This document shows positions 1 to 16,109 of a DNA stretch of 61,385 nt, piece by piece. Made by a program: the position numbers and the translations under genes. The notes beneath the pieces are model-generated. The model saw nothing but the letters and a program-made list of their open reading frames with translations. It was not told the DNA's origin and did no database searches. The stretch's first letter is position 1; each line of letters opens with the position of its first letter. This stretch comes from Lawsonibacter sp. (GTDB taxonomy: Bacteria > Bacillota > Clostridia > Oscillospirales > Oscillospiraceae), in assembly GCA_022791995.1 (NCBI GenBank), contig JAAWAD010000067.1, positions 1 through 61,385 on the forward strand, written 5' to 3'.

Positions 1-1
1 C

Positions 2-3000: not shown

Positions 3001-4288
3001 CGACAACGTGCATCCGGCGACTGGTGAGAATACCACCGTTCAGCAGATTGCCAGCCTGGACGGCGCTGCTAAGGTCACTATGAGCGCGGCTGCCAAGCTG
3101 AGCACCGAGACATTCAAGCCTGTGGTAATCAGCCTTGCGGCTGGCGCCACGATCACCCTGGAGAAGGGCACCAATGAGGCCAACATCACCATTACCGATT
3201 CCAACGGCAACGAGATTGACACCGGCAGCACCGAGACAACCATTGTGATTGGTGTGGATACAGGCGACAAGACTGTTGCAACTGATGGCGATGTTGTTGC
3301 TGATGCTACAGAGGAAGAGGCTAAGATTCCCTTTACTGCCACCGCCACAATCATTAAAGACAAAGCCAGTCTGGAGAGTGCAGTGGCGGCTGGATACCGG
3401 CTTGGTCCCGCAAATGAGAAAGACACCTTGTGGGGCAAGTGGGATACTCTGGATGCGCATGGCAAGACCACCCTGCCCTGGCTGTTTGCGATGCTCAAGG
3501 TAGACGAGACGACGAACCTCTGGGGCCAAACCATTACCGCCGTTGTTAAGAAGGACGGTGCGGAGGTCGCAAGAGAGGAGCGGACTCTGACAGAAGAGGC
3601 AGTGAAGCCCCTGATCTTCCACTGGGATATGAACAAGGATGTCCACGATAATCCCAATGATCGGAGCGAAGCGCTGAATCTGGAGACTGGCGAGTTGGAT
3701 GGCTCTTACACCGTTGAGTTCACCTGGACAGTCAAAGATGCAGCTGTTGAAGGTCAGACCCCTGTTGTCTCCAATGCAGTTTCTTACACCGAGCCTACGC
3801 TCATTTCTGTGCAGAGCTTTGGTGGACAGGACTTCACGGTTGACCAGAAGGCTGGTACCATTGTTATCAACAAAGTCATCAGCCTGGCCGAGGCGAGAGA
3901 GCAGGAACTGAACCTGTCTCAGTTCAGCGGCTACACAACGACCGACACCTTGGATACAATCAAAGGCGACAATGATTACGCCGCTATCGTGTTCGAGGTG
4001 GTTAACCCCGATGGTGTGTTCTCCAGTCTGAAGCATTATGGTCCCACAACACAGTCGGCGGTAAGCGATTCTTTCAATGCTGATGGGAAGACCACGTTTA
4101 CCATCTTTGTAAATGCAGAGAGTAAGATCGATGGTACAGGAGTGTATAAGATTGAGTTTGTGGCAAAGAAGGGTGATACGACAGACACCCGTGCTACATA
4201 TGACTTTACGGTCAAGTATAGCAGTGCTGCGCTCAACCAACTAAAGGCTATCAAAGATGCCTATGATGAAGCGAATCCTGGAGATTAA
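2..4288 (+). CDS. Large cell-surface protein, 5'-truncated
   Basis: The frame is open from base 2, so the real start lies upstream; at least 1,428 residues are visible and the protein ends with a TAA before a strong terminator. The sequence is rich in Asp, Asn, Gly, Ser, Thr and Val, has very few cysteines and no internal membrane segment. Around residues 820-1100 there are short alternating beta-type stretches rich in Val/Thr/Gly, suggesting a beta-solenoid-like stalk, followed by Ig-like sequence near the end. This resembles S-layer or SLH-anchored exoproteins of Oscillospiraceae, but no SLH repeat is visible in the part present, so any anchor would have to be in the missing N-terminus. Codon use is strongly biased (C/G third positions, AAC, AAG, GGC) up to about base 2400, then relaxes markedly. 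A surface role is inferred; no enzyme motif was recognised. Confidence 0.6.
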   Translation, partial: TQITSGTKYNFVTSGRDYAYAINRKLDTRNDGQYSAGAIVELGEKLYQGDLTKEGINDDLGRPATVWEFKTKEIGTYVDAADYEWSAKVTAKTLYNAVGKAATDNYDWEVYVDGVNFTDKLSTYSKGHGWMQLNDSKTNDDPCFLERTNVLTKGTHYGDGVANDDDKRTGNGVVTQVFVSSAMSDDSTLEEQRNGGTRTVTVAVTHYYAAEVYKINEDVKTIQISGFYGPVKSTDDFDTETKNFEDDQVVMYAYSDSAKSIQDVYPAEFMEGEVTQVRSGTTGGTEKDGDNFVVDSETYKYNATLLAKDRLLIENKGNPMAGYKDAFGYVAYIDESAVTYDYAYVLSMGTDRDTYGNNNQSSSIKGSTVYARLVLADGSIAKVQTNVKTSDAKNTTYDGGFTDAIDLHDAIAMYLNHIVSYSKGSDGVYSLSLKDVDHVGGKNIGGTGSIGAGIYPYAEHDNAKTIVTGTVPVDPSSDKNLKIDNGVGGFSFKYKDKNGGQHTEWYTANSNTTFIVAESDPDSYDDYTFSVYQGIKNVPDITNLSNTKIDVASNKAGIAKVVYIEDAEVSGMKNVVFIRADENAKIVGSVDNSNYYELNAYVDGKAETLRIKEGSSADSKLISSYDAFYNGSVALDLSSTKHIVAVSNVIVDADGLVTNVSLFKRYNPSTGDGVRVYDGDIDSVRDANAQIVASGTARQDKEVIYFGTKGQDPNADQEYYYGHSYNDDTAVAWYDYKGSFLDGSTISNIKKDVNDKALVVLSSNTLSGVCIQEIEDKTSGGSVDKDVGQKISSDDAQNATYLAECFKQYNTVTVTNKGEDAFGANRETARIPAGKTLRFEGDVETSAISFGTGSKLDVEGKLIIDSPISAAATITGKDAEVTTGAGTTAGTVTLTGDMKFVTNSVTMTVSGTTRVDSVSIKSGVSNSKIIVTGTMYVDGKNVKDTDPAVAGVEFEVLSVDSLHITGHVAADVKISTGNGSEYAKNGRVIIAGKMLGEFKDDNVHPATGENTTVQQIASLDGAAKVTMSAAAKLSTETFKPVVISLAAGATITLEKGTNEANITITDSNGNEIDTGSTETTIVIGVDTGDKTVATDGDVVADATEEEAKIPFTATATIIKDKASLESAVAAGYRLGPANEKDTLWGKWDTLDAHGKTTLPWLFAMLKVDETTNLWGQTITAVVKKDGAEVAREERTLTEEAVKPLIFHWDMNKDVHDNPNDRSEALNLETGELDGSYTVEFTWTVKDAAVEGQTPVVSNAVSYTEPTLISVQSFGGQDFTVDQKAGTIVINKVISLAEAREQELNLSQFSGYTTTDTLDTIKGDNDYAAIVFEVVNPDGVFSSLKHYGPTTQSAVSDSFNADGKTTFTIFVNAESKIDGTGVYKIEFVAKKGDTTDTRATYDFTVKYSSAALNQLKAIKDAYDEANPGD

Positions 4289-4320
4289 ACTTGAGCTTCC
4301 GCAAACCGGTACTTGACCAG

Positions 4321-4353
4321 AACCCCCAGGCCCAATGGCCTGGGGGTTCTTCT
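4321..4353 (+). terminator. Intrinsic terminator after the surface protein
   Basis: A perfect 12-bp stem (4321-4332 with 4337-4348) and a CAAT loop are followed by CTTCT. It lies between the stop of the surface protein and the convergent hydrolase gene, so it may serve both strands. Confidence 0.8.
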
Positions 4354-4357
4354 ATAC

Positions 4358-5308
4358 TCAGCACGCCGACGGATTATGCCGGTGCTTTTGGACAAATTCA
4401 AGGGGATTTTCTACAAATTCCAGAACCGGCTGTGCCGCATTTCTCCAATCCCGATCCAGCATCATGTCATGGCACAAATACTTCAGCCTGACAAGTGCCG
4501 TTAATTCATTCTGAGCATACGCATCGGCAGTTTTTTTCAATGACGCTTCCGGGAAATAGAGATCTGCATAAGAGCCAATAACGAATACAGGAATCTTGAC
4601 CTTATAATGCTCGGAATATGGTCTTGTCAGGTCCCCTTGCTGAAAGGGCGGGATCCGAAAAGAAAAATATCCGGTTACTTTTTTTGACTCTTTTTGAAGT
4701 AGCTTCTGATAGGGGGACGTGTCGTCTACTCTTTGGCAGCGTTTCCCCGCCTCATTTTCTCCGATAAAAAAAGATGCGTTATGTACAAGAAATTTACAAT
4801 TCCACCCCAAAAGCGAAATGAGAGAGGCAAAAGACAAATTGAGAGGAAAGAAACGCAGCACATCCTTGAGCGACATATGGGGCGCGGTTGCCGGAGCAAA
4901 TAAAACGGCGCCCTGAACTGTGTGAGCATATTTCCCGATGTATTGCTGGACGACAGCTCCGCCCATGGAGTGTCCCAATAAAAACGGCTTTACACCCTCC
5001 AGGTGAGGGTATTTCTCCATATCCTCCTGAGCGGTTTTAATCGCTGCTTTCACATCGTCCACATAATCCGATAAGCGAAATTGGGAAAGCTGTTCTCTGC
5101 CCTCGCTTCCAGCGTGTCCGCGCAGGCTTACAGCATAGCATTGATACCCCTGGCCGGCGAAAAAAGTGATGAAATTATCCCAGCACCATGCGCCATGGCA
5201 TATGCCGTGGACAAGCACAAGACAGCCCTTCGGATTTTTTACAATTTGCTTTTGACGCTTTTCCTCAATTTTTTCATCTCTTGGCAATATTTCCAGATTG
5301 TATTCCAT
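4358..5308 (-). CDS. Alpha/beta hydrolase (monoacylglycerol lipase/S33-like)
   Basis: A 316-residue alpha/beta-hydrolase-fold protein. HG near residue 34 fits the oxyanion region, GHSMGG holds the likely nucleophile Ser114, and Asp249 (SYADLYFP) and His280 (LCHDMM) complete a plausible triad. There is no signal peptide, so it is probably cytoplasmic, acting on esters or lipids; the substrate cannot be read. The start is supported by GGAGGTG just upstream. It follows the LysR gene by 31 bp on the same strand, so the two are probably co-transcribed. This suggests the hydrolase belongs to the same regulon as the divergent transporter operon, perhaps releasing or processing its acid substrate (inference). 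Confidence 0.75.
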   Translation of the reverse strand: MEYNLEILPRDEKIEEKRQKQIVKNPKGCLVLVHGICHGAWCWDNFITFFAGQGYQCYAVSLRGHAGSEGREQLSQFRLSDYVDDVKAAIKTAQEDMEKYPHLEGVKPFLLGHSMGGAVVQQYIGKYAHTVQGAVLFAPATAPHMSLKDVLRFFPLNLSFASLISLLGWNCKFLVHNASFFIGENEAGKRCQRVDDTSPYQKLLQKESKKVTGYFSFRIPPFQQGDLTRPYSEHYKVKIPVFVIGSYADLYFPEASLKKTADAYAQNELTALVRLKYLCHDMMLDRDWRNAAQPVLEFVENPLEFVQKHRHNPSAC

Positions 5309-5339
5309 TTTGCACCTCCATAAGTTGAATTGTCATTTT

Positions 5340-6203
5340 TTATACCGTTTGCTGTGACCGCACAAAATTGATAAATTCCCTGGCGTAGGGGTTTGACAAA
5401 GTGCTTTCCGAGTAGAGGAACCACGTGTTCCGGGTGAATGGGGTCTGGTCCAGGTTGTAGAGGGGTAACAGGAAAAAATCGGGGCGTTTCTCCAAAAAGC
5501 TGCCAAACGCAATGGAGTATCCCAATCCGTTTGCAACCATATCCAACGCGGTATCCAGGTCTGTAACGTGAATTCCAAGGTTAGGCGGCTGACGGAAGTG
5601 TTCGTTCCACCATTGAAAAACTGCGCTTTGTGTCGATTCGTTCCGGTTGTGCAGGATCAGTGGAAGCAGCGGCAAATCCTCCAGGCTGATGGGACTTGTA
5701 TAGATGGCATAGCAGTCCTGAACGTCATAAAGATGTGCCGTCAGAGAGTGTTGACTGTCCCCCAAAATAAAACCGCAATCAACCGCGTGAGAGTGAATGT
5801 ATTTTGGGATTTCAGAGCTGACATCCACACGAATTTGTGGTGAGATGTCGGGGTGCTCCGCGTGAAAGTCAGAGAGCAGACCAACCAGGAAGTATTTCAC
5901 AAAGGAGCTTGGTGCGCCAATCCTCACCAAAGGTGTGGAATGATTTCCCATAAGTTCCAAATGATGCAAGGTTTCCTCCATCAGACCCAAAAAGCGCTCG
6001 GACTGTCTTGCGAGGTATTGCCCTTCGGCGGTGAAGGTAACCCCTTTATTGCTGCGATAGACCAGCTGGCAGCCCAGCTCTTTTTCGATATATTGCAAAC
6101 GCTTGGTTAAGGCCGGCTGAGACATGAAAAGGAGTCGGGCCGCCTGCGTTAAATTTTTTGTGGTGTATAACGTTTTCAGCAACTTCCAATCCTCAGTTCT
6201 CAT
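5340..6203 (-). CDS. LysR-family transcriptional regulator
   Basis: A 287-residue LysR-type regulator. An N-terminal winged helix-turn-helix (about residues 1-60, with a TQAARLLFMSQPALTKRLQ helix pair) precedes a two-lobed periplasmic-binding-like effector domain. I chose ATG at 6203, because GGAGGTC lies just upstream and the protein then begins MRTEDWKLL as usual for the family; a longer frame to 6248 has no such support. It is divergent from the dehydrogenase-transporter operon, and a palindrome in the shared intergenic region fits its binding site. It probably senses the organic acid transported by TctABC. The first gene downstream on its own strand is the alpha/beta hydrolase. Confidence 0.88.
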   Translation of the reverse strand: MRTEDWKLLKTLYTTKNLTQAARLLFMSQPALTKRLQYIEKELGCQLVYRSNKGVTFTAEGQYLARQSERFLGLMEETLHHLELMGNHSTPLVRIGAPSSFVKYFLVGLLSDFHAEHPDISPQIRVDVSSEIPKYIHSHAVDCGFILGDSQHSLTAHLYDVQDCYAIYTSPISLEDLPLLPLILHNRNESTQSAVFQWWNEHFRQPPNLGIHVTDLDTALDMVANGLGYSIAFGSFLEKRPDFFLLPLYNLDQTPFTRNTWFLYSESTLSNPYAREFINFVRSQQTV

Positions 6204-6226
6204 CGTTGACCTCCGTTCATCACACG

Positions 6227-6241
6227 ATAACCTTTCGTTAT
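6227..6241. promoter_or_regulatory. Candidate LysR binding box (T-N11-A)
   Basis: ATAAC-N5-GTTAT is a perfect inverted repeat containing T-N11-A. Its centre is about 65 bp upstream of the transcription start predicted from the promoter at 6264-6292, where LysR-type recognition sites normally lie. Confidence 0.55.
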
Positions 6242-6263
6242 GGAGCACTGGCAGAAAAGCTAT

Positions 6264-6292
6264 TTTACAAAGCAGACAGCGACCTGTATAAT
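6264..6292 (+). promoter_or_regulatory. Promoter of the nine-gene operon
   Basis: TTTACA (6264-6269), a 17-bp spacer and TATAAT (6287-6292). Transcription should start near 6299, leaving an untranslated leader of about 80 nt before the ATG at 6380. Confidence 0.65.
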
Positions 6293-6379
6293 TGTGAAAA
6301 AGTGAGGGGGACTCTACAGAGGAAATTGGTCATTTTGTACAATGAAATGACGCGGTTTCGGTCAGAAAGGGAGGAACAT

Positions 6380-7273
6380 ATGGGAAAAGGAATTGCATGG
6401 ATTGGTTTTGGCGAAGCGGCCTATCACATTTCCTTGGGGTTAAAGCAACAAGGCTTTGACAGGATGGCGGCTTATGATCCAGCCAAACGGGACCCGTTGC
6501 GTGGGGCAACCATCCAGAGTCACGCGGAGCAGGTGGGGATATCCATTTGTGACACGCCTGAGGAAGCGATACAAGGAATGGATTTTGTCGTTTCTTTAAC
6601 CAGCGCAAAAGTGGCGGTTTCAATAGCCAGGCAGATTCTGCCTCTCATGAAGCGGGGACAGGTTTTTCTTGACTTCAATTCCGCTGCGCCGGACACCAAG
6701 CAGGAAATTGCGGCGCTGGAGCGTTCTGAAGGGGTGAGAATCTGTGATGTTGCAGTGATGGGGCCCGTTCCGCTCCACGGTTTCCGCGTTCCGCTGTTGA
6801 TTGCCGGGGAAGGCCGGCAGGAGTTTGCGCAGGAAATGCTCCCCTATGGGATGAAAATTGAGCTGCTGGAAGCGCCGGCAGGAGGGGCCTCGGCTGTAAA
6901 AATGATTCGGAGCGTGTTTATGAAGGGCTTTCCTCAGGTGATGCTGGAATGTCTTTTAGCAGCCGAGCGGTATGGTGTAACAGAAAAAATGCTCGACTCC
7001 CTGGAGGGTACCATTGGCGGAAAAACGGTCCGGCAGATGGCGAATCAGCTTTTTACACCCACAGTAATTCACGCGGAAAGACGCGCAGCAGAAATGAAGG
7101 AGGTTGTAAAAATGCTGCACACCGCAGGGCTGGCCGCACAGATGTCTGAAGCGGCCTTCCAGCGTCTGGAGCAGCTTGCGTCACTTCATATTGTAGACGA
7201 AATTGGAAGCGATGTCAAATTAGGCTACGCACAGATCCTTAGCAGAATTTTAGACCGCCAGGCCGGCGAGTGA
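6380..7273 (+). CDS. NAD(P)-dependent dehydrogenase, 6PGDH/HIBADH-like with DUF1932 C-terminus
   Basis: A 297-residue oxidoreductase. An N-terminal Rossmann fold (IGFGEAA near residues 7-13) leads into an all-helical C-terminal half resembling the DUF1932 6-phosphogluconate-dehydrogenase-like domain, with GGASAVKMIRS as the family's substrate/cofactor helix and the Lys as candidate catalytic residue. Such enzymes oxidise beta-hydroxy acids or reduce the corresponding semialdehydes or keto acids. ATG at 6380 is chosen because GGGAGGA precedes it and upstream in-frame sequence lacks a site. It is the first gene of the LysR-divergent operon, and the next gene's alternative GTG overlaps its stop. 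Its substrate is probably the acid taken up by TctABC or a product of it (inference). Confidence 0.75.
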   Translation: MGKGIAWIGFGEAAYHISLGLKQQGFDRMAAYDPAKRDPLRGATIQSHAEQVGISICDTPEEAIQGMDFVVSLTSAKVAVSIARQILPLMKRGQVFLDFNSAAPDTKQEIAALERSEGVRICDVAVMGPVPLHGFRVPLLIAGEGRQEFAQEMLPYGMKIELLEAPAGGASAVKMIRSVFMKGFPQVMLECLLAAERYGVTEKMLDSLEGTIGGKTVRQMANQLFTPTVIHAERRAAEMKEVVKMLHTAGLAAQMSEAAFQRLEQLASLHIVDEIGSDVKLGYAQILSRILDRQAGE

Positions 7274-7296
7274 ATTTGGTGTCAGGAGGAAAGGAT

Positions 7297-8046
7297 ATGG
7301 TTGTGGACCAGGAGAAATGTATCGGGTGCGGCATCTGTATGGTCTATTGCCCAAACGATGCAATCCAGATGGAAGAGAAGGAGAATGGAGCCAGGAGGGC
7401 AAGCATCCTACAGGAAAAGTGTCTGGAATGTGGGAACTGCATTCGCCCCCGTGTGGTTCGCTGCCCCGGGAAAGCCTTTTATGAACTGCCAGAGGAGGAC
7501 CGCTCGCTCAGCAGAAGGCTGCGTCGGTTTTTCAGCGATCCATCTACAACCCACCCTTTGACAGGAGTTCCGGGCCGGGGTACGGAGGAGGTGAAAACCA
7601 ACGATGTGACCGGTCGTGTATGCCGGGGAGAATTAGGAATCTGCCTGGAGCTTGGCCGGCCAATTATCGGTACCTCTGCTGCCGATATCGAAAAGGTCAC
7701 TATGCGGCTGGCCCGAATGGATATTGTTTTGGAGGAGTGCAACCCGGTCTGTGAGATGATTGCCGATCCCGAAACCGGAAAATTCAAACCGGAATTTATG
7801 GATGCCTCATTTATCAGTGCCATTGTAGAGTTTGTCATCCCGTTTTCCCGCGGGCCAGAGGTTCTGAAGGTCTGCAAAGAAATTGCAGAAGAAATTGACA
7901 CGGTTTTCTCGCTGGACATGATTTGCTGCTACGATGAGGATGGGACCAATCCCGCAGTCGCGCTGTGTGAACAGGAGGGGATTTCCCCTCGCTCCAACGC
8001 CAAGGTCAATATTGGTATTGGAAGACCTTACCGGATTGAGCGTTAA
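7297..8046 (+). CDS. Two-cluster ferredoxin-like protein, copy A (unknown family)
   Basis: 249 residues. The N-terminus holds a classic 4Fe-4S motif (Cys8, 11, 14, 18, followed by Pro) and a second, atypical one (Cys42, 45, 48 and 56-Pro, with seven residues before the last Cys instead of three). After a linker, a signature PGRGTEEVKTNDVTGR (about residues 95-110) is identical in the paralogue at 12018. The remaining 140 residues look like an alpha/beta domain with no motif I know. The start is the ATG after AGGAGGA; a GTG at 7270 overlapping the previous stop is less likely. Probable role: electron-carrying subunit for the partner at 8063. I do not recognise the full-length family. Confidence 0.7.
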   Translation: MVVDQEKCIGCGICMVYCPNDAIQMEEKENGARRASILQEKCLECGNCIRPRVVRCPGKAFYELPEEDRSLSRRLRRFFSDPSTTHPLTGVPGRGTEEVKTNDVTGRVCRGELGICLELGRPIIGTSAADIEKVTMRLARMDIVLEECNPVCEMIADPETGKFKPEFMDASFISAIVEFVIPFSRGPEVLKVCKEIAEEIDTVFSLDMICCYDEDGTNPAVALCEQEGISPRSNAKVNIGIGRPYRIER

Positions 8047-8062
8047 TTGAGGAGGGGATCGT

Positions 8063-8710
8063 ATGTCTCATTCACTACATAGAAGGGGAGCTCCCGAAGA
8101 TTTAAGGCACGATTATATCCTGCTTGTCACTGCCGCATCCGGGGTTAATCATGAAAACAGTAAGGAGAAGCTTCGCCAGGTGCTGGATTTGGTGTGGGAA
8201 ATTGGCCCGATCAACACCGGGTCAAACGAGACCGGCACCATTCTTTCCGGAGTGAGCGTGGAAGAAATCAAAGCGGGCTTTACAAAGGTACCCCGGGTGC
8301 GCTGCTGCTTTGACAGCGAGGATAAAATGCGGGAGATTTTGAAGCGGCTGCTGGCGATGGATCTTGGAATTTCGGTTACTGTTTCCGGCCCCAGGGGCCG
8401 AATCGAAGAAATGTGTCAGGAGATGGGGGTTCAGCCCCACTCGGTAAACTTCTCGCTGGACATTTGGGGCAAGCGGGAAAAGCTTCCTCCTGAGGAGATT
8501 ATGGAATTTGTTACAATGTGTGGACATGGACTGATCTCCAAGGCACTCGTCACAGATACAATCGAACGGATTAAAAATGGCTCCATGACGCCGGAGCAGG
8601 GAGCGGTTCGGATGGGAAGCCCATGTGTATGCGGTCTGTTCAATCCAACCCGGGCCGTCAAAGCGCTGCAAAAATATGTTCCTTCACAGCGGGAGGAGAC
8701 GGTCAAATAG
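8063..8710 (+). CDS. Cys-rich MSHSLHRRG protein, copy A (unknown)
   Basis: 215 residues with no recognised domain. It aligns without gaps to the protein at 12752 over at least 190 residues, with about 60% identity over the first 60. Conserved in both copies are the MSHSLHRRG start, His30, the Cys81-Cys82 pair (RVRCCFDS), Cys118, TMCGHG (Cys153, His155) and PCVCG (Cys188, Cys190), a pattern suggesting a metal or Fe-S site, or redox thiols. It is soluble with no signal peptide. GAGGGG precedes the ATG. It always follows the ferredoxin-like gene here, so the two probably form one complex, with this as the possible catalytic subunit (inference). Confidence 0.65.
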   Translation: MSHSLHRRGAPEDLRHDYILLVTAASGVNHENSKEKLRQVLDLVWEIGPINTGSNETGTILSGVSVEEIKAGFTKVPRVRCCFDSEDKMREILKRLLAMDLGISVTVSGPRGRIEEMCQEMGVQPHSVNFSLDIWGKREKLPPEEIMEFVTMCGHGLISKALVTDTIERIKNGSMTPEQGAVRMGSPCVCGLFNPTRAVKALQKYVPSQREETVK

Positions 8711-8720
8711 GAGGTGTAGG

Positions 8721-9221
8721 ATGAAGCTGAAATATAAACATGGAAATTTGATTTTGGGGGCCGTGGCGATTGCGGCGGGAGGGATTATTCTGTTTCTTAC
8801 AAAAGCGCAGAAGCTGGAATTTCTGAAAAACGAGATGCCGGGCCCTGGAATGTTTCCGAGCCTCTGTGCGCTTGCGGTGATTCTGTGCGGCGTTTTGCTT
8901 CTGGCAGAGACATTTTCCAAGATGTTAGAGGCAGCGCGGGAGGGGAAAGCCGACTCAGAGCTGGAGGAGAACATTTTAAATTTCCATGAGCTGAAAAACC
9001 TTTTGGTCCTTTTGATTTTGGGCGGCCTTATTTTGGTATTGGCCGAGCGGATTGGGCTGCTGACCTGCCTTGGACTAAGCATAGTTTTCTATATAAAGAT
9101 TCAAGGAAAGGAGCCTTGGCGGAAGGCTGTATGGATTGGTGTTGCCGCCACTGTTTTCCTTTATGTCACGTTTGTTTGGTTTTTGCGTGTGCCCGTTCCC
9201 AAGGGCCCCCTTGGATTTTGA
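8721..9221 (+). CDS. tctB: Tripartite tricarboxylate transporter small membrane subunit TctB
   Basis: 166 residues, four predicted membrane helices (about 8-26, 47-64, 95-113 and 115-160 with a break), matching the size and layout of TctB. The motif PGPGMFP after the first helix is typical of the family. TctB pairs with the large TctA and the binding protein TctC in secondary, ion-coupled carboxylate uptake. ATG at 8721 is chosen because GAGGTG lies just upstream and the hydrophobic first helix follows directly. The transporter order here is B-A-C; it lies between two copies of the Fe-S module. Confidence 0.85.
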   Translation: MKLKYKHGNLILGAVAIAAGGIILFLTKAQKLEFLKNEMPGPGMFPSLCALAVILCGVLLLAETFSKMLEAAREGKADSELEENILNFHELKNLLVLLILGGLILVLAERIGLLTCLGLSIVFYIKIQGKEPWRKAVWIGVAATVFLYVTFVWFLRVPVPKGPLGF

Positions 9222-9239
9222 AATTGGGAGGTGACAAGT

Positions 9240-10751
9240 ATGGCGCTGTTTCTGAATCTGGCCCATGGCTTTTCTATTCTTGCTGACCCAAGAGTCATTT
9301 TATACTCCCTGCTTGGTGTGGTGGCCGGCGTCATCATCGGTGCGCTGCCTGGTCTGGGGCCCTCTGTTGGAATCGCGGTGCTTCTTCCTATGTGCTATGG
9401 CCTGAACGCCACATGCGCGCTGTGTATGCTGTGCGGCATTTACTATGGCTCCATGTATGGCGGTTCAATCACTGCAATTTTGATTAATACGCCTGGCGAT
9501 TCCGCTGCGGTTATGACGACGCTGGACGGTTACCCCCTGGCCAGAAAGGGAGAGGCGGGAAAGGCGTTGGGCATGTCCTGCTTTGCCTCTGTACTGGGCG
9601 GAACGGTAGCGGTTGTTCTGTTTATGGTGCTGGCGCCTGTCATTTCCTCCTATGCGTTATCCTTTGGCTCCTCAGAGTACTTTGCGCTGATGGTTCTGGG
9701 GCTGACTTCCATTGCGGGCATGACCGGAAAATCGCCAGCGAAAGGGTTTCTTGCGGTGTTTTTGGGGTTGTTTGTCTCTGGAATTGGGATTGATCTGGTA
9801 TATGGCACGCAAAAATTTGTATTTGGAAACGTCCATCTGTACTCCGGCATTGATTTTGTGCCGGTTGCGATGGGGCTGTTCGGGATTGCAGAAATTATCT
9901 GTGACAAGACGGATCACAGCATTCATGTAGACAAAGAGAGTTTGAAATTCAAGCGACTGTTTCCGACCTGGCAGGAGTGGAAAATTTGTATGCCGCACAT
10001 CGGCCGGGGCACAGTTTTAGGCTTTTTGGTCGGTATGCTGCCGGGTGCAGGAGCAACCATTGCCTCCTTCCTCTCCTATGGCATGGCCAAGAATGTATCC
10101 AAGCGGGGCGATCAATTTGGAAGCGGTGTACTGGAAGGCGTGGCAGCGCCGGAATCTGCAAACAATGCGGCTTCCATGGGAGCAATGGTACCGATGCTGA
10201 CTCTGGGAGTTCCGGGCAGCGGAGCAACGGCGATTATGATGGGGGCGCTGATGATGCTTGGAATTACGCCAGGCCCCTCCTTCTTTACAAAGAGCGCAGA
10301 TGTTGCGTGGGGGTTGGTGGCCTCCATGTATCTGGGAAATGTCATTCTGGCTGTTTTGGGAATATGCGGGCTGTCGCTGTTTGTGAAGGTCCTGAACGTA
10401 AAAGGCACCACCCTGAACGCTTTGATTTTCGCATTCATTCTGATTGGGGCATACGCATTGGAAAACTCTATGTTCACCGTTGGATTGACGCTGTTTTTTG
10501 GCTTTCTTGGCTATCTGTTCAAAAAGTTGAATGTACCGGCCGCACCTATGGTTTTGGGTATTGTGCTGGGGTACTTGACAGAATCCAATCTGCGTCAGGC
10601 CCTGATTATTGACGACGGAAATCTGCTGGCGGTTGTTACTCACCCAATTTCGTTTGTAATTTTAATTGTTGCAGTTCTTCTGGCCTTTGGGACACCAATT
10701 AAAAATTGGATGCGGGGGTTGCGAAAAAAGCGGTCGGCCACTTCAATTTGA
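9240..10751 (+). CDS. tctA: Tripartite tricarboxylate transporter large membrane subunit TctA
   Basis: 503 residues with 10-12 hydrophobic segments, the usual length of TctA. Family signatures are plain: GALPGLGP in an early loop, YYGSMYGGSITAILINTPG, and a second pseudo-symmetric GMLPGAGATIAS about residue 265 with TLGVPGSGATA later. It forms the ion-coupled channel for a di- or tricarboxylate delivered by TctC. ATG at 9240 follows GGGAGGTG; a GTG at 9231 lies inside that ribosome binding site and is rejected. Eighteen bases separate it from tctB. Confidence 0.9.
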   Translation: MALFLNLAHGFSILADPRVILYSLLGVVAGVIIGALPGLGPSVGIAVLLPMCYGLNATCALCMLCGIYYGSMYGGSITAILINTPGDSAAVMTTLDGYPLARKGEAGKALGMSCFASVLGGTVAVVLFMVLAPVISSYALSFGSSEYFALMVLGLTSIAGMTGKSPAKGFLAVFLGLFVSGIGIDLVYGTQKFVFGNVHLYSGIDFVPVAMGLFGIAEIICDKTDHSIHVDKESLKFKRLFPTWQEWKICMPHIGRGTVLGFLVGMLPGAGATIASFLSYGMAKNVSKRGDQFGSGVLEGVAAPESANNAASMGAMVPMLTLGVPGSGATAIMMGALMMLGITPGPSFFTKSADVAWGLVASMYLGNVILAVLGICGLSLFVKVLNVKGTTLNALIFAFILIGAYALENSMFTVGLTLFFGFLGYLFKKLNVPAAPMVLGIVLGYLTESNLRQALIIDDGNLLAVVTHPISFVILIVAVLLAFGTPIKNWMRGLRKKRSATSI

Positions 10752-10824
10752 CAAGCTGTACAGCATATGGGCGGTAGTAGCTGGAAAACCAGTTCACTAA
10801 TATTTTTTGAGGAGGAAAGACACT

Positions 10825-11895
10825 ATGAAACGGATTATCGGGTTCCTTTTGGCTTCTGCAATGGTGCTGTCGCTTGCGGCTTGCAGCGGCGGCAGCTCCA
10901 GTGGCGGTTCTTCGACGCCAGCCTCTGGCGGCACCTCTGCCGGGAGCGGGACTGGCAGCGGCGCCGGCACGGGAGGGGACGCCGCTGCTTCGTCCGAGAC
11001 AGGATGGGCCCCCACAGAGACCATTGAGATGGTAATTCCCTTCTCGGCTGGCGGCGGCTCGGATGTTTTTGCGCGTAAGATTGTCGAAATCATCGAGTTG
11101 AAAAAGCTGTGTCCGGCCAGTATTATTCCGACAAATAAGCCTGGCGGCTCTGGCGTGGTTGGATATACCTATCTGAATTCCAAGGGAGACAGTCCTTACT
11201 TTATCGCAACAACAAGCTCCAGCTTCTATTCTCAGCCTCTTTCCAATAACTCTCCGCTGAGCTGCTACGACGATTTCTCTTTTGTATCGCATCTGTGTAA
11301 GGATCCGAATCTTGTGGTATCTGGGACAAGCCGTGGGTTTACAAATTTGCAGGATATGATTACATTTGCCAAGGAAAATCCAGGCACGCTGAAATATGGC
11401 GGTACAGGCAATGTCTCGGACGACGCGATTTTGATGTACATGCTCAATGCGCTCTGTGACATTGAATTGGTCTATGTCCCTTATGACTCTGGTGCAGAGG
11501 TTTTGGCTGCCGTTCTGGGTGGGCACATCGATATCTGCTGCATGTCCCCTTCGGAGGCTGGAGAGCACCTGACCTCCGGCTCCCTGATTCCACTGGCGGT
11601 CTCTGCGGATGAACGCCTATCCATCATCCCGGATGTTCCAACCTTCGAGGAGGAGGGAATTGCGATGCGGCACCAGCAGAGCCGTGGCGTTGTGATGAAT
11701 GCCGGTGTTCCCCAGGAGGCGGTGGAGTACTATTCTGACCTGATGCGTCAGGTGTCTGAAACCGAGGAATGGCAGATGTTCCTGAAGGATAATGTGATGG
11801 TTGGCGCCTATATGCCGACAGAAGAGTACGTGGAGTTTAACAAATCTCTGGCCGACGATTATAAAGAATTTCTTGGGATTATCTTGGCGGAGTAG
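10825..11895 (+). CDS. tctC: TctC/Bug-family carboxylate-binding lipoprotein
   Basis: 356 residues. A lipoprotein signal peptide ends in LSLAAC, followed by a Ser/Gly/Ala-rich linker of about 45 residues. The mature protein begins with the Bug/TctC hallmark strand (IEMVIPFSAGGGSDVFAR) and ends in a typical two-lobed periplasmic-binding fold. In a Gram-positive it should be tethered to the outer face of the membrane and present a carboxylate to TctA. GAGGAGG precedes the ATG. The ligand of Bug proteins varies widely (citrate, aromatic acids, dicarboxylates), so the substrate cannot be assigned. Confidence 0.88.
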   Translation: MKRIIGFLLASAMVLSLAACSGGSSSGGSSTPASGGTSAGSGTGSGAGTGGDAAASSETGWAPTETIEMVIPFSAGGGSDVFARKIVEIIELKKLCPASIIPTNKPGGSGVVGYTYLNSKGDSPYFIATTSSSFYSQPLSNNSPLSCYDDFSFVSHLCKDPNLVVSGTSRGFTNLQDMITFAKENPGTLKYGGTGNVSDDAILMYMLNALCDIELVYVPYDSGAEVLAAVLGGHIDICCMSPSEAGEHLTSGSLIPLAVSADERLSIIPDVPTFEEEGIAMRHQQSRGVVMNAGVPQEAVEYYSDLMRQVSETEEWQMFLKDNVMVGAYMPTEEYVEFNKSLADDYKEFLGIILAE

Positions 11896-11944
11896 AGGAT
11901 AGAGGCCCATCGTAAAAAATGAAGTGGTCCCGATGGGGTATAGG

Positions 11945-11982
11945 GTGCCCGGTAACCGATTCAGTTGCCGGTTACCGGGCAC
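11945..11982 (+). promoter_or_regulatory. Large intercistronic hairpin between tctC and module B
   Basis: A perfect 14-bp inverted repeat (11945-11958 with 11969-11982) with a 10-nt loop, followed by TTTC only. It is a weak terminator, attenuator or RNA-stabilising structure that could lower expression of the genes at 12018-14539 relative to tctC. No separate promoter is obvious after it. Confidence 0.6.
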
Positions 11983-12017
11983 TTTCAACATGTTTTGCTG
12001 TGAAGGAGGGAGCTTTT

Positions 12018-12749
12018 GTGGTAGTAGATCAGGATCTGTGTATTGGATGCGGAAAGTGTGTTCCCTACTGTCCGGTACGCGCAATCTCAATTGTTCAGAA
12101 AAAAGCGGTTATTGACCAGGAGATCTGTGTCGAGTGTGGAACATGTGGCAGAAAAAACAATTTTGTCAAATGTCCCGGAAATGCTCTGCATGAACGGGAG
12201 GATGTGACCAGACATCCGCGCTCTATCCGCAAGTTTTTCAGTGATCCAATGGCAACCCATGTGGAGACCAAGGTGCCCGGACGCGGAACAGAGGAAGTGA
12301 AAACAAATGATGTGACCGGGCGGGTGGATAAGAAGCATTACGGAATTGCTATCGAAATGGGCAGGCCCAGTGTAGCGGCCAGCTATCAGGATGTGGAAAA
12401 AATGACGATGGCGCTGTCCAAATTCCATATTGTTCATGAGCCATGTAATCCCATAAAATACTTATTTGAAGACGAGAAGAAAGGAACCCTGACCCGGGAG
12501 GCTCTGGAGCAGAGAGTAATTTCGACGATTATTGAATTTAATATAGAAAAAGATCAACTGGAGGAGGTCCTGGAAGCCATCCTTGAGACAGGCAAAACGT
12601 TGGATACAGTTTTTTCTCTGGATCTGATCGCCCGTTTTGACACGCCGGATGCAATGCCCGATATCCCGGTACTGGCAAGATTGGGGCTGGAGCCCAGACC
12701 AAACAGCAAGATCAATCTGGGCCTTGGAAAACCGCTGAAGGAGGAATGA
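12018..12749 (+). CDS. Two-cluster ferredoxin-like protein, copy B (unknown family)
   Basis: 243 residues, paralogue of the protein at 7297. The first 4Fe-4S motif is Cys8, 11, 14, 18-Pro; the second is Cys37, 40, 43 and 52-Pro, with eight residues before the last Cys. It shares RKFFSDP-type sequence, then the identical PGRGTEEVKTNDVTGR block, EMGRP, a C-terminal hydrophobic core with DTVFSLD, and a PNSKIN motif near the end. GTG at 12018 is chosen: GAAGGAGGG lies seven bases upstream, and both copies then begin MVVDQ. Its stop overlaps an alternative ATG of the next gene, so translation is probably coupled. Probably an electron-transfer subunit. Confidence 0.7.
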   Translation: MVVDQDLCIGCGKCVPYCPVRAISIVQKKAVIDQEICVECGTCGRKNNFVKCPGNALHEREDVTRHPRSIRKFFSDPMATHVETKVPGRGTEEVKTNDVTGRVDKKHYGIAIEMGRPSVAASYQDVEKMTMALSKFHIVHEPCNPIKYLFEDEKKGTLTREALEQRVISTIIEFNIEKDQLEEVLEAILETGKTLDTVFSLDLIARFDTPDAMPDIPVLARLGLEPRPNSKINLGLGKPLKEE

Positions 12750-12751
12750 GT

Positions 12752-13381
12752 ATGTCGCATTCGCTGCACAGACGTGGAAGCGCCTGTTCTCTAAAGAACG
12801 ATTTTGTTCTTTTGGTCACACCTGCTGTTGGCATCAATCATGTGGGGGCTGGGCCGAAGTTGTGGAAGGTCCTGGATATTGTGACAGAGGCGGGGCCCGA
12901 CAATATTGGCTCTTACGAGACGGGTACAATTTACAGTGGTGTTACAATCGAAGAGATCCGCAGCAATATGCCGGAAACCCCGCGTGTACGCTGTTGTTTT
13001 GACAGCAAAGAAAAAATGTTCCTGGTTTTGAAGCGGATCAAGGAATTGGATTTCGGTCTTTCCGTTACAATCAGCGGCCTGAATGAAGAAATTCTGGATA
13101 TGTGCAAACAGCTGAATATTCCTCCCCACTCCGTAAACTATTCTCTGGGTATTCATGGCGCAACAGAAAAGCTTCCGCCTGAAGAACTTCTGGAACTCAT
13201 AACGATGTGCGGTCATGGCATGATTTCCCGCGATTTGGTTGCGAAAGCGGTGGAAGAGGTCAAAAGCGGCAAAAAAACACCACATGACGCAGCTGTTATG
13301 GTTGCACAGCCATGTGTCTGCGGTATTTTCAACGTGGCCCGGGCAGAGAAGCTGCTGGAAAAATATCTGCCGGCGATGTAA
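12752..13381 (+). CDS. Cys-rich MSHSLHRRG protein, copy B (unknown)
   Basis: 209 residues, paralogue of the protein at 8063 with the same residue numbering for every conserved cysteine (81, 82, 118, 153, 188, 190) and for His30 and His155. Between copies the extreme C-terminus and the 31-39 region vary most. No known domain was recognised. AAGGAGG lies seven bases before ATG 12752, which also gives the shared MSHSLHRRG start; ATG 12746 is in frame but too close to the ribosome binding site. The retention of both copies with all cysteines suggests two related enzymes or two subunits of one complex rather than decay. Confidence 0.65.
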   Translation: MSHSLHRRGSACSLKNDFVLLVTPAVGINHVGAGPKLWKVLDIVTEAGPDNIGSYETGTIYSGVTIEEIRSNMPETPRVRCCFDSKEKMFLVLKRIKELDFGLSVTISGLNEEILDMCKQLNIPPHSVNYSLGIHGATEKLPPEELLELITMCGHGMISRDLVAKAVEEVKSGKKTPHDAAVMVAQPCVCGIFNVARAEKLLEKYLPAM

Positions 13382-13450
13382 GCGACCAAAGCGGCAGCCA
13401 CAGGAGACATTTATCCTGCGACATATTGAGAAAGAGAGGTGCGATAATTG

Positions 13451-14539
13451 ATGAAGGTATCTGCGCAGCGGCTGCATACCTGTATCCAGACGATCCTGGA
13501 ATCTACAGGCGAGAGCAGGGAAAATGCAGGTATTGCGGCGGATCTGATGGTAAAGTGTGATATGAGAGGGGGTTCAACACACGGCTCCCACATGCTGAAC
13601 CTGATTTATGCCCGGCGCAAGGTAGGGCAGCTCTCATTTCCGACGAAAATCGAAACAATTCGAGAGGATGGCGCAGTTGCCGTGCTGGATGGAGGGGATG
13701 GCCTGGGGCAGGTTGCCGTGTGGCATATGGCGGAACTGGCGGTTCAGAAAGCCAAGCGCTATGGGGTCAGCGCAGTCCTTTTGCGTCGTACAAACAACGC
13801 AGGGGCGCTCGGTCCCTATGTGGAGCGTGTTGCAGAGGAGGGGATGGTGTGTCTGCTGTTCTGCAACGCCTCTCCTGCGATGGCTCCATGGGGCGGCAGG
13901 ACGCAGTTTTTCGGGACCCAGCCCTTTGCCATTGGTATTTATACCGGAACAGACACCATTTTTTCCGCTGATATGGCCACTGCACAGGTTGCAAGAGGGA
14001 AAATCCGAAAAGCTGCCCGGGATCACAAAGAAATTCCTTCGACTTGGGCGCTGGACCGCAGCGGGGAGCCTACCACCGACCCGGTTGAGGCGATCAAAGG
14101 AATTTTGCTCCCCATTGGAGGTCCAAAGGGCTCCGCCATCGCACTGGCGATTGATATTGTTGCCGGTCTGATATCTGGATCAAGCTATGCGCCAGACGTG
14201 AAAGCAATCCATTATCCAGAGGGAGAGGCTGGCGTTGGCTGTGGAATGATTGCGCTCAATATTGAACATTTTATGGATATGCAGACATACCTCAGACAGA
14301 TTTCTCTGTATTTGTCCCGGGTAAAAGCGGTGGAAAAAGCAAAAGGTGTGGAGGAGATTCTGCTGCCGGGAGAAACAAAACAGCGGAGGGAGCGCCTTGC
14401 AGCACAGGATGGGGTTGATTTGCCGGAAGAGGAATTTGTGGGGATCAATCAGGCCCTAACGGAGCTGAAACAAAATGTGCAGCTGGAACCGCTGGAATTG
14501 CCCTTGTTGTACAGGGCAGAGAAGGGGCGGAAAAATTGA
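13451..14539 (+). CDS. Ldh2-family (malate/L-lactate/ureidoglycolate-type) dehydrogenase
   Basis: 362 residues, the usual length of the Ldh_2 NAD(P)-dependent oxidoreductase family, which differs from the Rossmann dehydrogenases. Visible signatures are GGSTHGSHML near residue 40 (active-site His region), DGGDGLGQV, the RRTNNAGALGPYV block, and GPKGSAIALAIDI in the C-terminal half. Members reduce 2-keto acids or oxidise 2-hydroxy acids such as malate, sulfolactate, ureidoglycolate or diketogulonate. GAGAGGT precedes the ATG; the TTG three bases upstream is less likely. It is the last gene of the operon and is followed by a strong terminator. Confidence 0.82.
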   Translation: MKVSAQRLHTCIQTILESTGESRENAGIAADLMVKCDMRGGSTHGSHMLNLIYARRKVGQLSFPTKIETIREDGAVAVLDGGDGLGQVAVWHMAELAVQKAKRYGVSAVLLRRTNNAGALGPYVERVAEEGMVCLLFCNASPAMAPWGGRTQFFGTQPFAIGIYTGTDTIFSADMATAQVARGKIRKAARDHKEIPSTWALDRSGEPTTDPVEAIKGILLPIGGPKGSAIALAIDIVAGLISGSSYAPDVKAIHYPEGEAGVGCGMIALNIEHFMDMQTYLRQISLYLSRVKAVEKAKGVEEILLPGETKQRRERLAAQDGVDLPEEEFVGINQALTELKQNVQLEPLELPLLYRAEKGRKN

Positions 14540-14547
14540 GAAAGCAG

Positions 14548-14583
14548 ACAGCACCAGGAAATCTTCTCCTGGTGCTGTTTTTA
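14548..14583 (+). terminator. Intrinsic terminator ending the LysR-divergent operon
   Basis: A 12-bp perfect stem (14548-14559 with 14567-14578), a 7-nt loop and a T run. It starts 9 bases after the dehydrogenase stop and lies between convergent genes. Confidence 0.88.
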
Positions 14584-14593
14584 CAAAATGCCT

Positions 14594-14926
14594 TTAATTG
14601 TCTGGCAGGTTTTGCTCACCCCAGGCTTTCATATAGCGAATGACATCCATAAAGCTTGTGCCCAGATCAGACAGGGTGTATTCAACCCGCGGAGGAATTT
14701 CCTGAAAGTCGTGTCGAATCAAAAATCCATCAGCTTCCAGTTCTCGAAGCTGCTTTGTCAGGGATGATTCCGTTATTTCGCCGAGCTGGCGGCGCAGTTT
14801 TCCAAATCTATGGATGTCACAGAATGCGATATAGTAGAGGATTTCAAGTTTCCACTTGCCTCCCAAAATTTTTTGAAGGGTGGACATGGTTTTGCAGCGC
14901 TGAATCGCTGCTTCTGTCTTTTTCAT
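14594..14926 (-). CDS. HxlR-family transcriptional regulator
   Basis: 110 residues, a single winged-helix domain of the HxlR (DUF24) type: LGGKWKLEILYYI, FGKLRRQLGEITESSLTKQLRELEADGFL and the PPRVEYTLSDLG wing. Cys11 sits just before the domain, where redox-sensing members such as YodB/HypR carry their sensor cysteine. The start has GGAGGCGAT upstream. It is divergent from a radical SAM gene, and the shared 125-bp region has repeated GTACC elements that probably form its operator. Likely a repressor responding to electrophiles or oxidants (family knowledge, not shown here). Confidence 0.85.
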   Translation of the reverse strand: MKKTEAAIQRCKTMSTLQKILGGKWKLEILYYIAFCDIHRFGKLRRQLGEITESSLTKQLRELEADGFLIRHDFQEIPPRVEYTLSDLGTSFMDVIRYMKAWGEQNLPDN

Positions 14927-14976
14927 GCTGCATCGCCTCCTGGCTGGATTATATCGCTGATATCTGTAAAAAACAA

Positions 14977-15027
14977 GGTACTATAAAAAAGTACCGTACT
15001 TTTTATTTTTTTGTACCGTGATATAAT
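14977..15027. promoter_or_regulatory. Candidate HxlR operator and promoter
   Basis: GGTAC (14977-14981) and GTACC (14991-14995) form an inverted repeat around an A/T spacer, with TACT-N7-AGTA inside it. A further GTACC (15013-15017) sits just before a TATAAT (15022-15027) that can drive the radical SAM gene. Repressor binding here would cover both divergent promoters. Confidence 0.5.
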
Positions 15028-15051
15028 GGCAAAAAACAAGGAGGTGCTGTT

Positions 15052-15987
15052 ATGCACTACACCGGGACAATATGGAGGCCACCGTATGAGGCCGCATCGC
15101 TGCTGCTTGAAGTAACGGCAGGCTGTACCCACCACAAATGTAAATTTTGTACGCTTTATCACGATCTGCCGTTCCAATTCCGAATGTCACCCCTTGGGGA
15201 TATAGAAAGCGACTTGCAGGAGGCACAGCTTTGGAGCACAGACCCTATTGCAATGTTGACCGCTCGTTTGCAGGGAACGCCCAGACCGAAGCCGATCCAA
15301 CGGGCTTTTTTGACCGGAGCAAATCCCTTTGTATTGCAGTATAAACGGCTGATGGATATTGCGGGCCTGATCCGGCGATATATTCCTACAATCCAAACGA
15401 TTGGATGCTTTGCTCGGATCACAGATGTTGCGCAAAAGTCAGAGGAGGAGTTGACGTCCCTTCACCGGGCTGGATATGACGGGTTGACAATAGGGATGGA
15501 GACAGGTGATGATGAAGCTCTGCGGTTTATGAATAAGGGATATACCGCGGCTGATATCGTGAAACAGTGCCGCCGGTTAGACCAGGCCGGTATTCATTAC
15601 AGCCTTTTCTATTTGGGGGGCATTTCCGGCGCTGGCCGGGGTAAGCTTGGGGCAACGGCGACTGCTGTCGTTTGCAATCAGCTCCACCCGACGCGAATTG
15701 GCGTAAATATGTTGACCATTTATCCGGAATCAGAGCTTTATCAGGAGATTTTGCGCGGCCGTTGGAAGGAGGAAAGTGAGATTGAAAAATACAAGGAAAT
15801 CCGCACTCTGCTCGAACATCTGGAGATACCAACCCAATTTGCCGCTTTCGGCGCGTCCAATGCGTTCCAGTTTCAAGGGGCCTTGCCGGAGGAGAAAGAA
15901 GCGCTCGCCGCGGCGCTGGATAAGATTATCGAAACCGGGGCGGAGGATGCTTTGCGGGAGTACCGCGTAAATCTGCGCCATCTGTAG
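15052..15987 (+). CDS. Radical SAM protein of unknown function
   Basis: 311 residues. The cluster-binding cysteines are Cys25, Cys30 and Cys33 (GCTHHKCKFCTLYHD), a Cx4Cx2C spacing rather than the common Cx3Cx2C. The following LTGANPF, YDGLTIGMETGDDEAL and FYLGGISGAGRG segments match the SAM-binding strands of Elp3-like radical SAM proteins. It is soluble with no added Fe-S domain. GGAGGTG precedes the ATG. Standing alone opposite the HxlR regulator, it may be induced by the stress that regulator senses. The reaction cannot be inferred. Confidence 0.78.
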   Translation: MHYTGTIWRPPYEAASLLLEVTAGCTHHKCKFCTLYHDLPFQFRMSPLGDIESDLQEAQLWSTDPIAMLTARLQGTPRPKPIQRAFLTGANPFVLQYKRLMDIAGLIRRYIPTIQTIGCFARITDVAQKSEEELTSLHRAGYDGLTIGMETGDDEALRFMNKGYTAADIVKQCRRLDQAGIHYSLFYLGGISGAGRGKLGATATAVVCNQLHPTRIGVNMLTIYPESELYQEILRGRWKEESEIEKYKEIRTLLEHLEIPTQFAAFGASNAFQFQGALPEEKEALAAALDKIIETGAEDALREYRVNLRHL

Positions 15988-16072
15988 TATCTGCTTATTG
16001 CGATGAATATCATGTCAACTTAACGCTATAAATTCCGGAAGACCGAGTCGTTATTCAACGGGATAACTGTCG

Positions 16073-16109
16073 AAAAGCAGCCTGTCTGGAGATACACCAG
16101 ACAGGCTGC
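16073..16109 (-). terminator. Terminator of the esterase/ATP-grasp operon
   Basis: A 13-bp perfect stem (16077-16089 with 16097-16109). Read on the minus strand it is followed by TTTTCG, so it ends transcription from the ATP-grasp gene. The rest of 15988-16167 holds nothing else I recognise. Confidence 0.7.

Follow-up and report, generated by a model that had tools for sequence, protein, structure and literature searches.

A near-obligate ferredoxin-Cys gene pair linked to carboxylate transporters: a candidate two-subunit iron-sulfur enzyme for imported hydroxy acids

We analyzed a stretch of 61,385 nucleotides from Lawsonibacter sp. (contig JAAWAD010000067.1 of assembly GCA_022791995.1, positions 1 to 61,385; hereafter the window), in which a single operon at 6380-14539 carries two copies of a two-gene module. 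The module encodes a protein with a two-cluster ferredoxin domain (Fdx) and a protein with conserved cysteine and histidine motifs (Cys). Our main finding is that Fdx and Cys form a near-obligate unit containing two protein stretches that have neither a Pfam or NCBIfam family nor a convincing relative in the Protein Data Bank (PDB). We tentatively propose that Fdx and Cys are the two core subunits of a new iron-sulfur enzyme, sensitive to oxygen and coupled to ferredoxin, for imported hydroxy acids, a reading that we hold as a serious possibility somewhat short of probable. An enzymatic role of the pair would account for the first step that many anaerobes take on organic acids imported by TctABC and similar systems.

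The duplicated module described in the initial annotation was confirmed, with the open reading frames of both pairs at the positions given there: Fdx copy A (7297-8046) and Cys copy A (8063-8710), followed by Fdx copy B (12018-12749, GTG start) and Cys copy B (12746-13381), all on the plus strand. The two Fdx copies share 46% identity (114 of 249 columns, E=4e-74), and the Cys copies, for which a gap-free alignment of at least 190 residues had been claimed, align without gaps over 208 residues with 55% identity (E=4e-89); both likenesses are far beyond chance. Cys copy A has the SHxLHR start and the TMCGHG and PCVCG motifs. Residues of Cys are numbered here from the ATG at 12746, which overlaps the stop of Fdx copy B, and the common MSHSLHR start of the family corresponds to the ATG at 12752. 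The statement that both copies keep all cysteines was correct as regards the eight ferredoxin cysteines and all those of Cys copy A; the extra cysteines of Fdx copy A, however, are missing from copy B.

Pairing was nearly constant outside the window. Fdx lay directly upstream on the same strand for 101 of the 107 Cys genes in the fetched loci, a count from which we excluded four Cys pieces that lack the start motif and an Fdx that lacks the cysteine motif. The median intergenic gap was 4 bases (at most 30 in 95 of the 101 pairs), and the genes overlapped in 26. Among the six exceptions, an IS110-family transposase gene (10367-11575) separates Fdx from Cys in locus L011, the gene order is reversed in L039, Fdx is cut by the contig end in L072, Cys of L081 is preceded by a partial Cys and then by the contig end, and Fdx is frame-shifted in L020. 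A 491-residue open reading frame in L020, considered as an Fdx-Cys fusion, proved to be this frame-shifted Fdx read into Cys, and long open frames in genomes G370 and G480 were stopped between the genes or lay in another frame. No true fusion was seen among the loci looked at, and no further search aimed at fusions was made.

Separate profile searches with Cys and with the Fdx C-terminal domain returned the identical 26 of 398 genomes of the host's phylum (own genome counted), with Fdx present only as a fragment in G274. These searches scored at most seven or eight candidates per genome, and the copy numbers derived from them are lower bounds. When the hits were matched by coordinates, an Fdx hit was present within 1.2 kb of 52 of the 53 full-length Cys hits. 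The lone exception (position 340173 in G221) has its Fdx in locus L121, and two Fdx hits of the same genome that had looked solitary have their Cys; all that was still unpaired after checking were fragments in G265, two of Cys and two of Fdx. The single contig of G221 (G221:C1, 2.88 Mb) carries nine Fdx-Cys pairs (L120-L126) in settings as varied as AOR, TRAP-like, TctABC and FMN oxidoreductase genes. Pairwise distances among Cys proteins correlated with those among Fdx C-terminal domains (r=0.83 over 97 pairs, against a maximum of 0.11 in 1000 permutations), a value to which shared descent contributes; these 97 pairs comprise 95 locus pairs and the two window pairs, with unpaired, truncated and odd-length copies excluded. 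These results support the pair, recognized as a unit in the initial annotation, as a real one.

Within the host's family, 6 of 200 genomes carried Cys (own genome counted), and within its genus 1 of 21, the host's own. A scan of 84,980 species genomes yielded 356 stretches encoding Cys; by their records, the 76 loci obtained from the best 80 of these belong to Bacillota, Thermodesulfobacteriota, Chloroflexota, Synergistota, Nitrospirota, Myxococcota, Bathyarchaeota and others, most of them lineages of anaerobes. A mobile-element origin was considered and rejected: Cys had no relative in viral contigs and none in a plasmid collection at E≤1e-5.

As the initial annotation had sensed in recognizing neither family in full, Pfam identifies only the ferredoxin part of Fdx (approximately residues 1-50 in copy A and 1-45 in copy B), and neither the C-terminal part of about 180 residues nor the whole of Cys reached the cut-off of any family in Pfam or NCBIfam. 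Scattered weak matches were all that was obtained when 88 Cys relatives were compared with Pfam and 34 Fdx C-terminal domains with Pfam and NCBIfam; the commonest, a SHOCT-like domain in 11 of the 88 Cys proteins (best E 0.001), was scattered and was not accepted as a known family. The set of 88 consisted of 86 of the 100 listed Cys proteins (of 107) plus the two window copies, and the 14 excluded were mostly near-duplicates. Profile searches against the PDB gave no convincing relative either: the best matches, XPA for Cys (E 0.033) and glycerate kinase for the Fdx C-terminal part (E 0.005), were short and judged to be due to chance. Among the papers listed in the literature searched, none described the pair in its title or the start of its abstract, a negative of little weight since most subscription journals lie outside that literature, and the available parts of PMC8776680, PMC11456536, PMC10838667 and PMC5764234 do not mention it. 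Relative to the libraries used, the Fdx-Cys protein families are new; the reaction is one that we infer.

Conservation was assessed in the 97 full-length pairs and does not extend to truncated Cys copies. In Fdx, the ferredoxin domain contains two four-cysteine cluster motifs (Fer4 matches), the second with a final spacing longer than usual; C8, C11, C14, C18, C37 and C52 occur in 97/97 rows and C40 and C43 in 96, the remaining row having an X. Outside the cysteines, G88, R89, G90, K95, N97, G115, R116, P117, S169, E173, V198, K231, N233, G235 and G237 are invariant. Invariant positions of Cys include R9, G104, H128, G138, M154, C155, G156, H157, C190, C192 and N196; H5 is kept in 95 and H8 in 94 of the 97 rows. 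C155, C190 and C192 are the only invariant cysteines of Cys. The invariant residues of the pair include ones of the metal-ligand and anion-binding type. The AlphaFold model of Cys copy B (pLDDT 93.8, pTM 0.90) predicts a ferredoxin-like N-terminal domain and a helical domain that would bear the cysteine/histidine site.

The operon of the window runs in the order DUF1932 dehydrogenase, pair A, TctB-TctA-TctC, pair B and Ldh_2 dehydrogenase. The tctB, tctA and tctC genes between the copies and the two different dehydrogenases at the ends, as originally described, were confirmed by Pfam, with TctB, TctA, TctC, DUF1932, NAD_binding_2 and Ldh_2 all over their cut-offs. The less biased sample for transporter linkage was the set of 26 pair-bearing genomes, whose 57 Cys hits include four fragments. 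TctA lay within 5 kb of 34 of these hits (0.9 expected under uniform placement) and within 10 kb of 35 (1.8 expected), the expectations being calculated with rounded genome sizes. When Cys hits were grouped into 49 loci, TctA was within 10 kb in 29 and not in 20; seen from the transporter, 33 of 97 TctA hits were near Cys. Neither rarity of the two genes together nor rarity of the pair near tctABC, which the initial annotation had named as counter-evidence, was observed.

Gene neighbours were counted in 81 operons (76 loci from the best 80 of the 356 stretches and five family loci), and the counts lean to close relatives because of this origin. Neighbour clusters were named from one checked member each, unless named by reading. 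TctC was in the same operon as the pair in 40 of the 81, TctA in 38 and TctB in 37; other loci carry AbrB-type genes (AbrB in 6 operons) or, as we take them to be from reading their sequences, TRAP- or DASS-like transporter genes. Genes that we presume, again by reading, to encode a GntR/FadR-type regulator were present in 21 operons. Redox neighbours were an FNOR-like flavoprotein (17), a CooS-like protein (14) and AOR (6), together with presumed PorAB-like genes, named by the same means, in L008 and L032. Neighbours related to hydroxy or oxo acids were dehydrogenases of the 3-hydroxyisobutyrate dehydrogenase (HIBADH)/DUF1932 type (15), Ldh_2 (10), PdxA (9), the DapA type (7) and LarA (4), and further neighbours were a xylose-isomerase-like TIM barrel (8), the PanB type (3) and a class V aminotransferase (4), whose best NCBIfam model, aspartate-glyoxylate aminotransferase, was under the cut-off. 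An IlvD-type dehydratase was found in two operons (L036 and L044), a glyoxylate-carboligase-like gene (under cut-off) in L084, glycyl radical enzymes in L079 and L123, and single RraA-like (L047) and FAA_hydrolase (L022) genes adjoining the pair. The neighbour theme is hydroxy and oxo acids together with low-potential redox enzymes. We also observed CooS-like proteins of about 250-590 residues, some cut by contig ends, together with a dicluster ferredoxin and the FNOR-like flavoprotein beside the pair in L009, L012 and some of L050-L086.

A tree of the 97 Cys rows, in which supports are values of the Shimodaira-Hasegawa-like approximate likelihood ratio test only, placed copies A and B in separate clades with their own orthologues: copy A with L015, L016, L042 and L043 (support 99), and copy B with L013-L016 (support 97) and then L017. 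The sister group of the copy B clade includes the AOR-linked L018, L032 and L038 (joint support 82), and L015 and L016 carry orthologues of both A and B plus a third type. The two copies are therefore two isoforms, as had been suggested, and they may also form a four-subunit complex. Copies in the same locus had a mean identity of 44% for Cys and 47% for Fdx (27 comparisons), and thus are old paralogues and not fresh duplicates. Changes of neighbour label over the tree (CooS 7 changes for 14 rows, FNOR 6 for 18, TctA 17 for 51, AOR 3 for 6) had no shuffle control and are not used as proof.

A truncated second Cys of 138-140 residues, ending just before the helical domain, was present alongside a full copy in five loci (L034:16067-16486, L035:16070-16489, L036:12432-12854, L040:12420-12839 and L044:7965-8381), whose records are three Desulfosporosinus and two Gracilibacter. 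No leftover of the cysteine/histidine domain was seen in the three forward frames of about 300 bases 3' of these genes. Pairwise dN/dS values of the truncated form were 0.05-0.12 (10 comparisons) versus 0.05-0.07 for the full copy, indicating purifying selection. A structural or asymmetric role would fit its occurrence next to the full copy. Two other Cys pieces (L051:7871-8257 and G567:C9:97423-97755) hold the C-terminal half and the cysteine/histidine motifs only.

With regard to the origin of the operon, the G+C fraction is 0.504 at 4289-16100, versus 0.604 at 16101-61385 and 0.557 at 1-4288. Similarity of five congener loci (L146, L147, L149, L150 and L151) to the window begins at about 16183 and stops short of the operon, and Cys was found in 0 of 20 congeners; horizontal gain is therefore likely.

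On the basis of these results, the proposed enzyme might work as follows. TctABC or similar transporters would bring in carboxylates, probably 2-hydroxy or sugar acids, for processing by the pair. Fdx would relay electrons through two [4Fe-4S] clusters, and R89, K95, N97, R116, S169, E173, K231 and N233 of its C-terminal domain may hold the acid. Cys would be the reaction centre, in which C155, H157, C190 and C192, perhaps with H5, H8 and H128, might hold a metal site in the helical domain, the simplest candidate being a [4Fe-4S] cluster that is bound by three cysteines and leaves one iron open. The imported hydroxy acid would be interconverted with an oxo or deoxy acid while electrons are exchanged with the ferredoxin pool, the two operon dehydrogenases would handle neighbouring steps, and copies A and B could serve different substrates or steps.

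Several observations weigh against this proposal. TctA was lacking within 10 kb of 22 of the 57 Cys hits, so that the link to an imported organic acid, borne out by the TctA linkage, was too narrow as first formulated. The diversity of the partner enzymes leaves no single reaction that fits all loci. Among fold matches of the Cys model, the best, a weak one, was to PII-like regulators, and C155 is far from C190 and C192 in the sequence. The truncated Cys is under selection without the presumed metal domain, and that domain is thus dispensable for the role of those copies. Finally, no Fdx was detectable in the 634 bases between Cys and the contig end in L029. A wider version of the proposal, which we regard as doubtful, is that the pair represents an undescribed class of ferredoxin-driven metalloenzyme that occurs in at least Bacillota, Thermodesulfobacteriota, Chloroflexota, Synergistota, Nitrospirota and Bathyarchaeota and of which a genome may have as many as nine versions, each specific for its substrate. 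In this version the enzyme would catalyze the initial redox step on hydroxy acids after their import, and the truncated, metal-less Cys would form the second half of an asymmetric complex. Because some operons hold several copies and some loci a truncated form, substrate specificity and complex building are open to direct testing.

Other explanations should be considered. The three invariant cysteines of Cys would suit the open-iron cluster of a non-redox dehydratase or lyase comparable to aconitase or dihydroxy-acid dehydratase and acting on hydroxy or sugar acids; the ferredoxin domain would then serve only to provide or mend the cluster. The DapA-type (7 of 81 operons), RraA-like and FAA_hydrolase neighbours belong to families often acting on oxo acids. 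However, the eight conserved ferredoxin cysteines point to real electron transfer, and the IlvD-type dehydratase of L036 and L044 would be redundant; we consider this explanation unlikely. The frequencies of the FNOR-like, CooS-like and AOR genes given above, partly grouped in the Cys tree, suggest an electron carrier or maturation module for the oxidoreductases of the operon, PorAB-like ones included, without a substrate of its own. This is quite unlikely in our judgment, since the operon of the window has no such oxidoreductase and a simple carrier needs neither a 210-residue partner with invariant cysteines and histidines nor several divergent copies per operon.

The fold match raises the idea of a redox-sensing transporter regulator, with Cys as a PII-like protein that blocks or frees the transporter. 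Among the matches listed for Cys there was none to P-II, and Cys differs from PII-like proteins such as SbtB and CPII by its extra helical domain with invariant cysteines and histidines and by its genetic tie to a ferredoxin protein; such a regulator seems to us improbable. Reductive transfer of sulfur onto an imported oxo acid, which would resemble the homocysteine pair of DUF39 and NIL/ferredoxin proteins, is suggested by the like layout of that pair, in which one protein joins a ferredoxin to a small domain and the other is a cysteine protein (PMC5764234). We hold it to be very unlikely in view of the transporter-linked setting, the up to nine copies per genome and the lack of NIL or HcyBio matches. 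NIL did not match the two window Fdx proteins (E≤1) or the 34 C-terminal domains (E≤5, at which HMMER filters drop most weak matches); HcyBio (DUF39) matched neither window copy of Cys, was not among the matches listed for the 88 Cys proteins (25 of 69 families), and was present in 0 of 2 pair-bearing genomes examined.

The remaining genes of the operon also lie on the plus strand. The first (6380-7273) encodes an NAD-binding dehydrogenase of the 3-hydroxyisobutyrate dehydrogenase type with DUF1932 (PF09130 56.8 bits, PF03446 33.2 bits), whose start was set at the ATG preceded by GGAGG, the mechanical open reading frame beginning at 6158. The transporter consists of the membrane subunits TctB (8721-9221; PF07331 60.1 bits, scanned from 8700), with its start at the ATG preceded by AGGAGG in a frame that extends further upstream, and TctA (9231-10751; PF01970 512.4 bits), and the substrate-binding lipoprotein TctC (10825-11895; PF03401 109.1 bits). 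The last gene (13448-14539) encodes an Ldh_2 family 2-hydroxyacid dehydrogenase of the malate/lactate/ureidoglycolate type (PF02615 327.2 bits). A sulfolactate pathway, an idea drawn from Ldh_2 and TctABC, was rejected, as this protein scored 237.2 bits against the L-sulfolactate dehydrogenase model NF040650 and missed its cut-off of 500; sulfolactate may still be a substrate. Outside the operon and transcribed divergently from it, a gene on the minus strand (5340-6248) encodes a LysR-type protein (PF03466 102 bits, PF00126 58.3 bits) that is likely to be its regulator. An alpha/beta hydrolase-like gene with weak NCBIfam matches (4358-5308, minus strand) adjoins the LysR gene and possibly belongs to the same regulon. 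Just 3' of the operon, genes for an HxlR regulator and a radical SAM protein (14594-15987) lie inside the low-GC stretch.

Among known systems, the DUF39 (HcyBio) and NIL/ferredoxin pair (MA1821/MA1822, and in Desulfovibrio) is comparable in that, according to the available part of PMC5764234, it occurs in anaerobes and joins a ferredoxin fused to a small domain with a partner of key cysteine chemistry. That system is tied to methionine, whereas Fdx-Cys is tied to carboxylate uptake and occurs in several copies per genome. The CooS-CooF-FNOR modules, for which the terms FNOR and mini-CooS are those of the available part of PMC8776680, resemble part of our loci, where a CooS-like protein, a dicluster ferredoxin and an FNOR-like flavoprotein accompany the pair, but the operon of the window has no CooS. 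Finally, with respect to TctABC transporters, the three transporter genes of the window are ordinary members, and it is the flanking Fdx-Cys pairs that set this operon apart.

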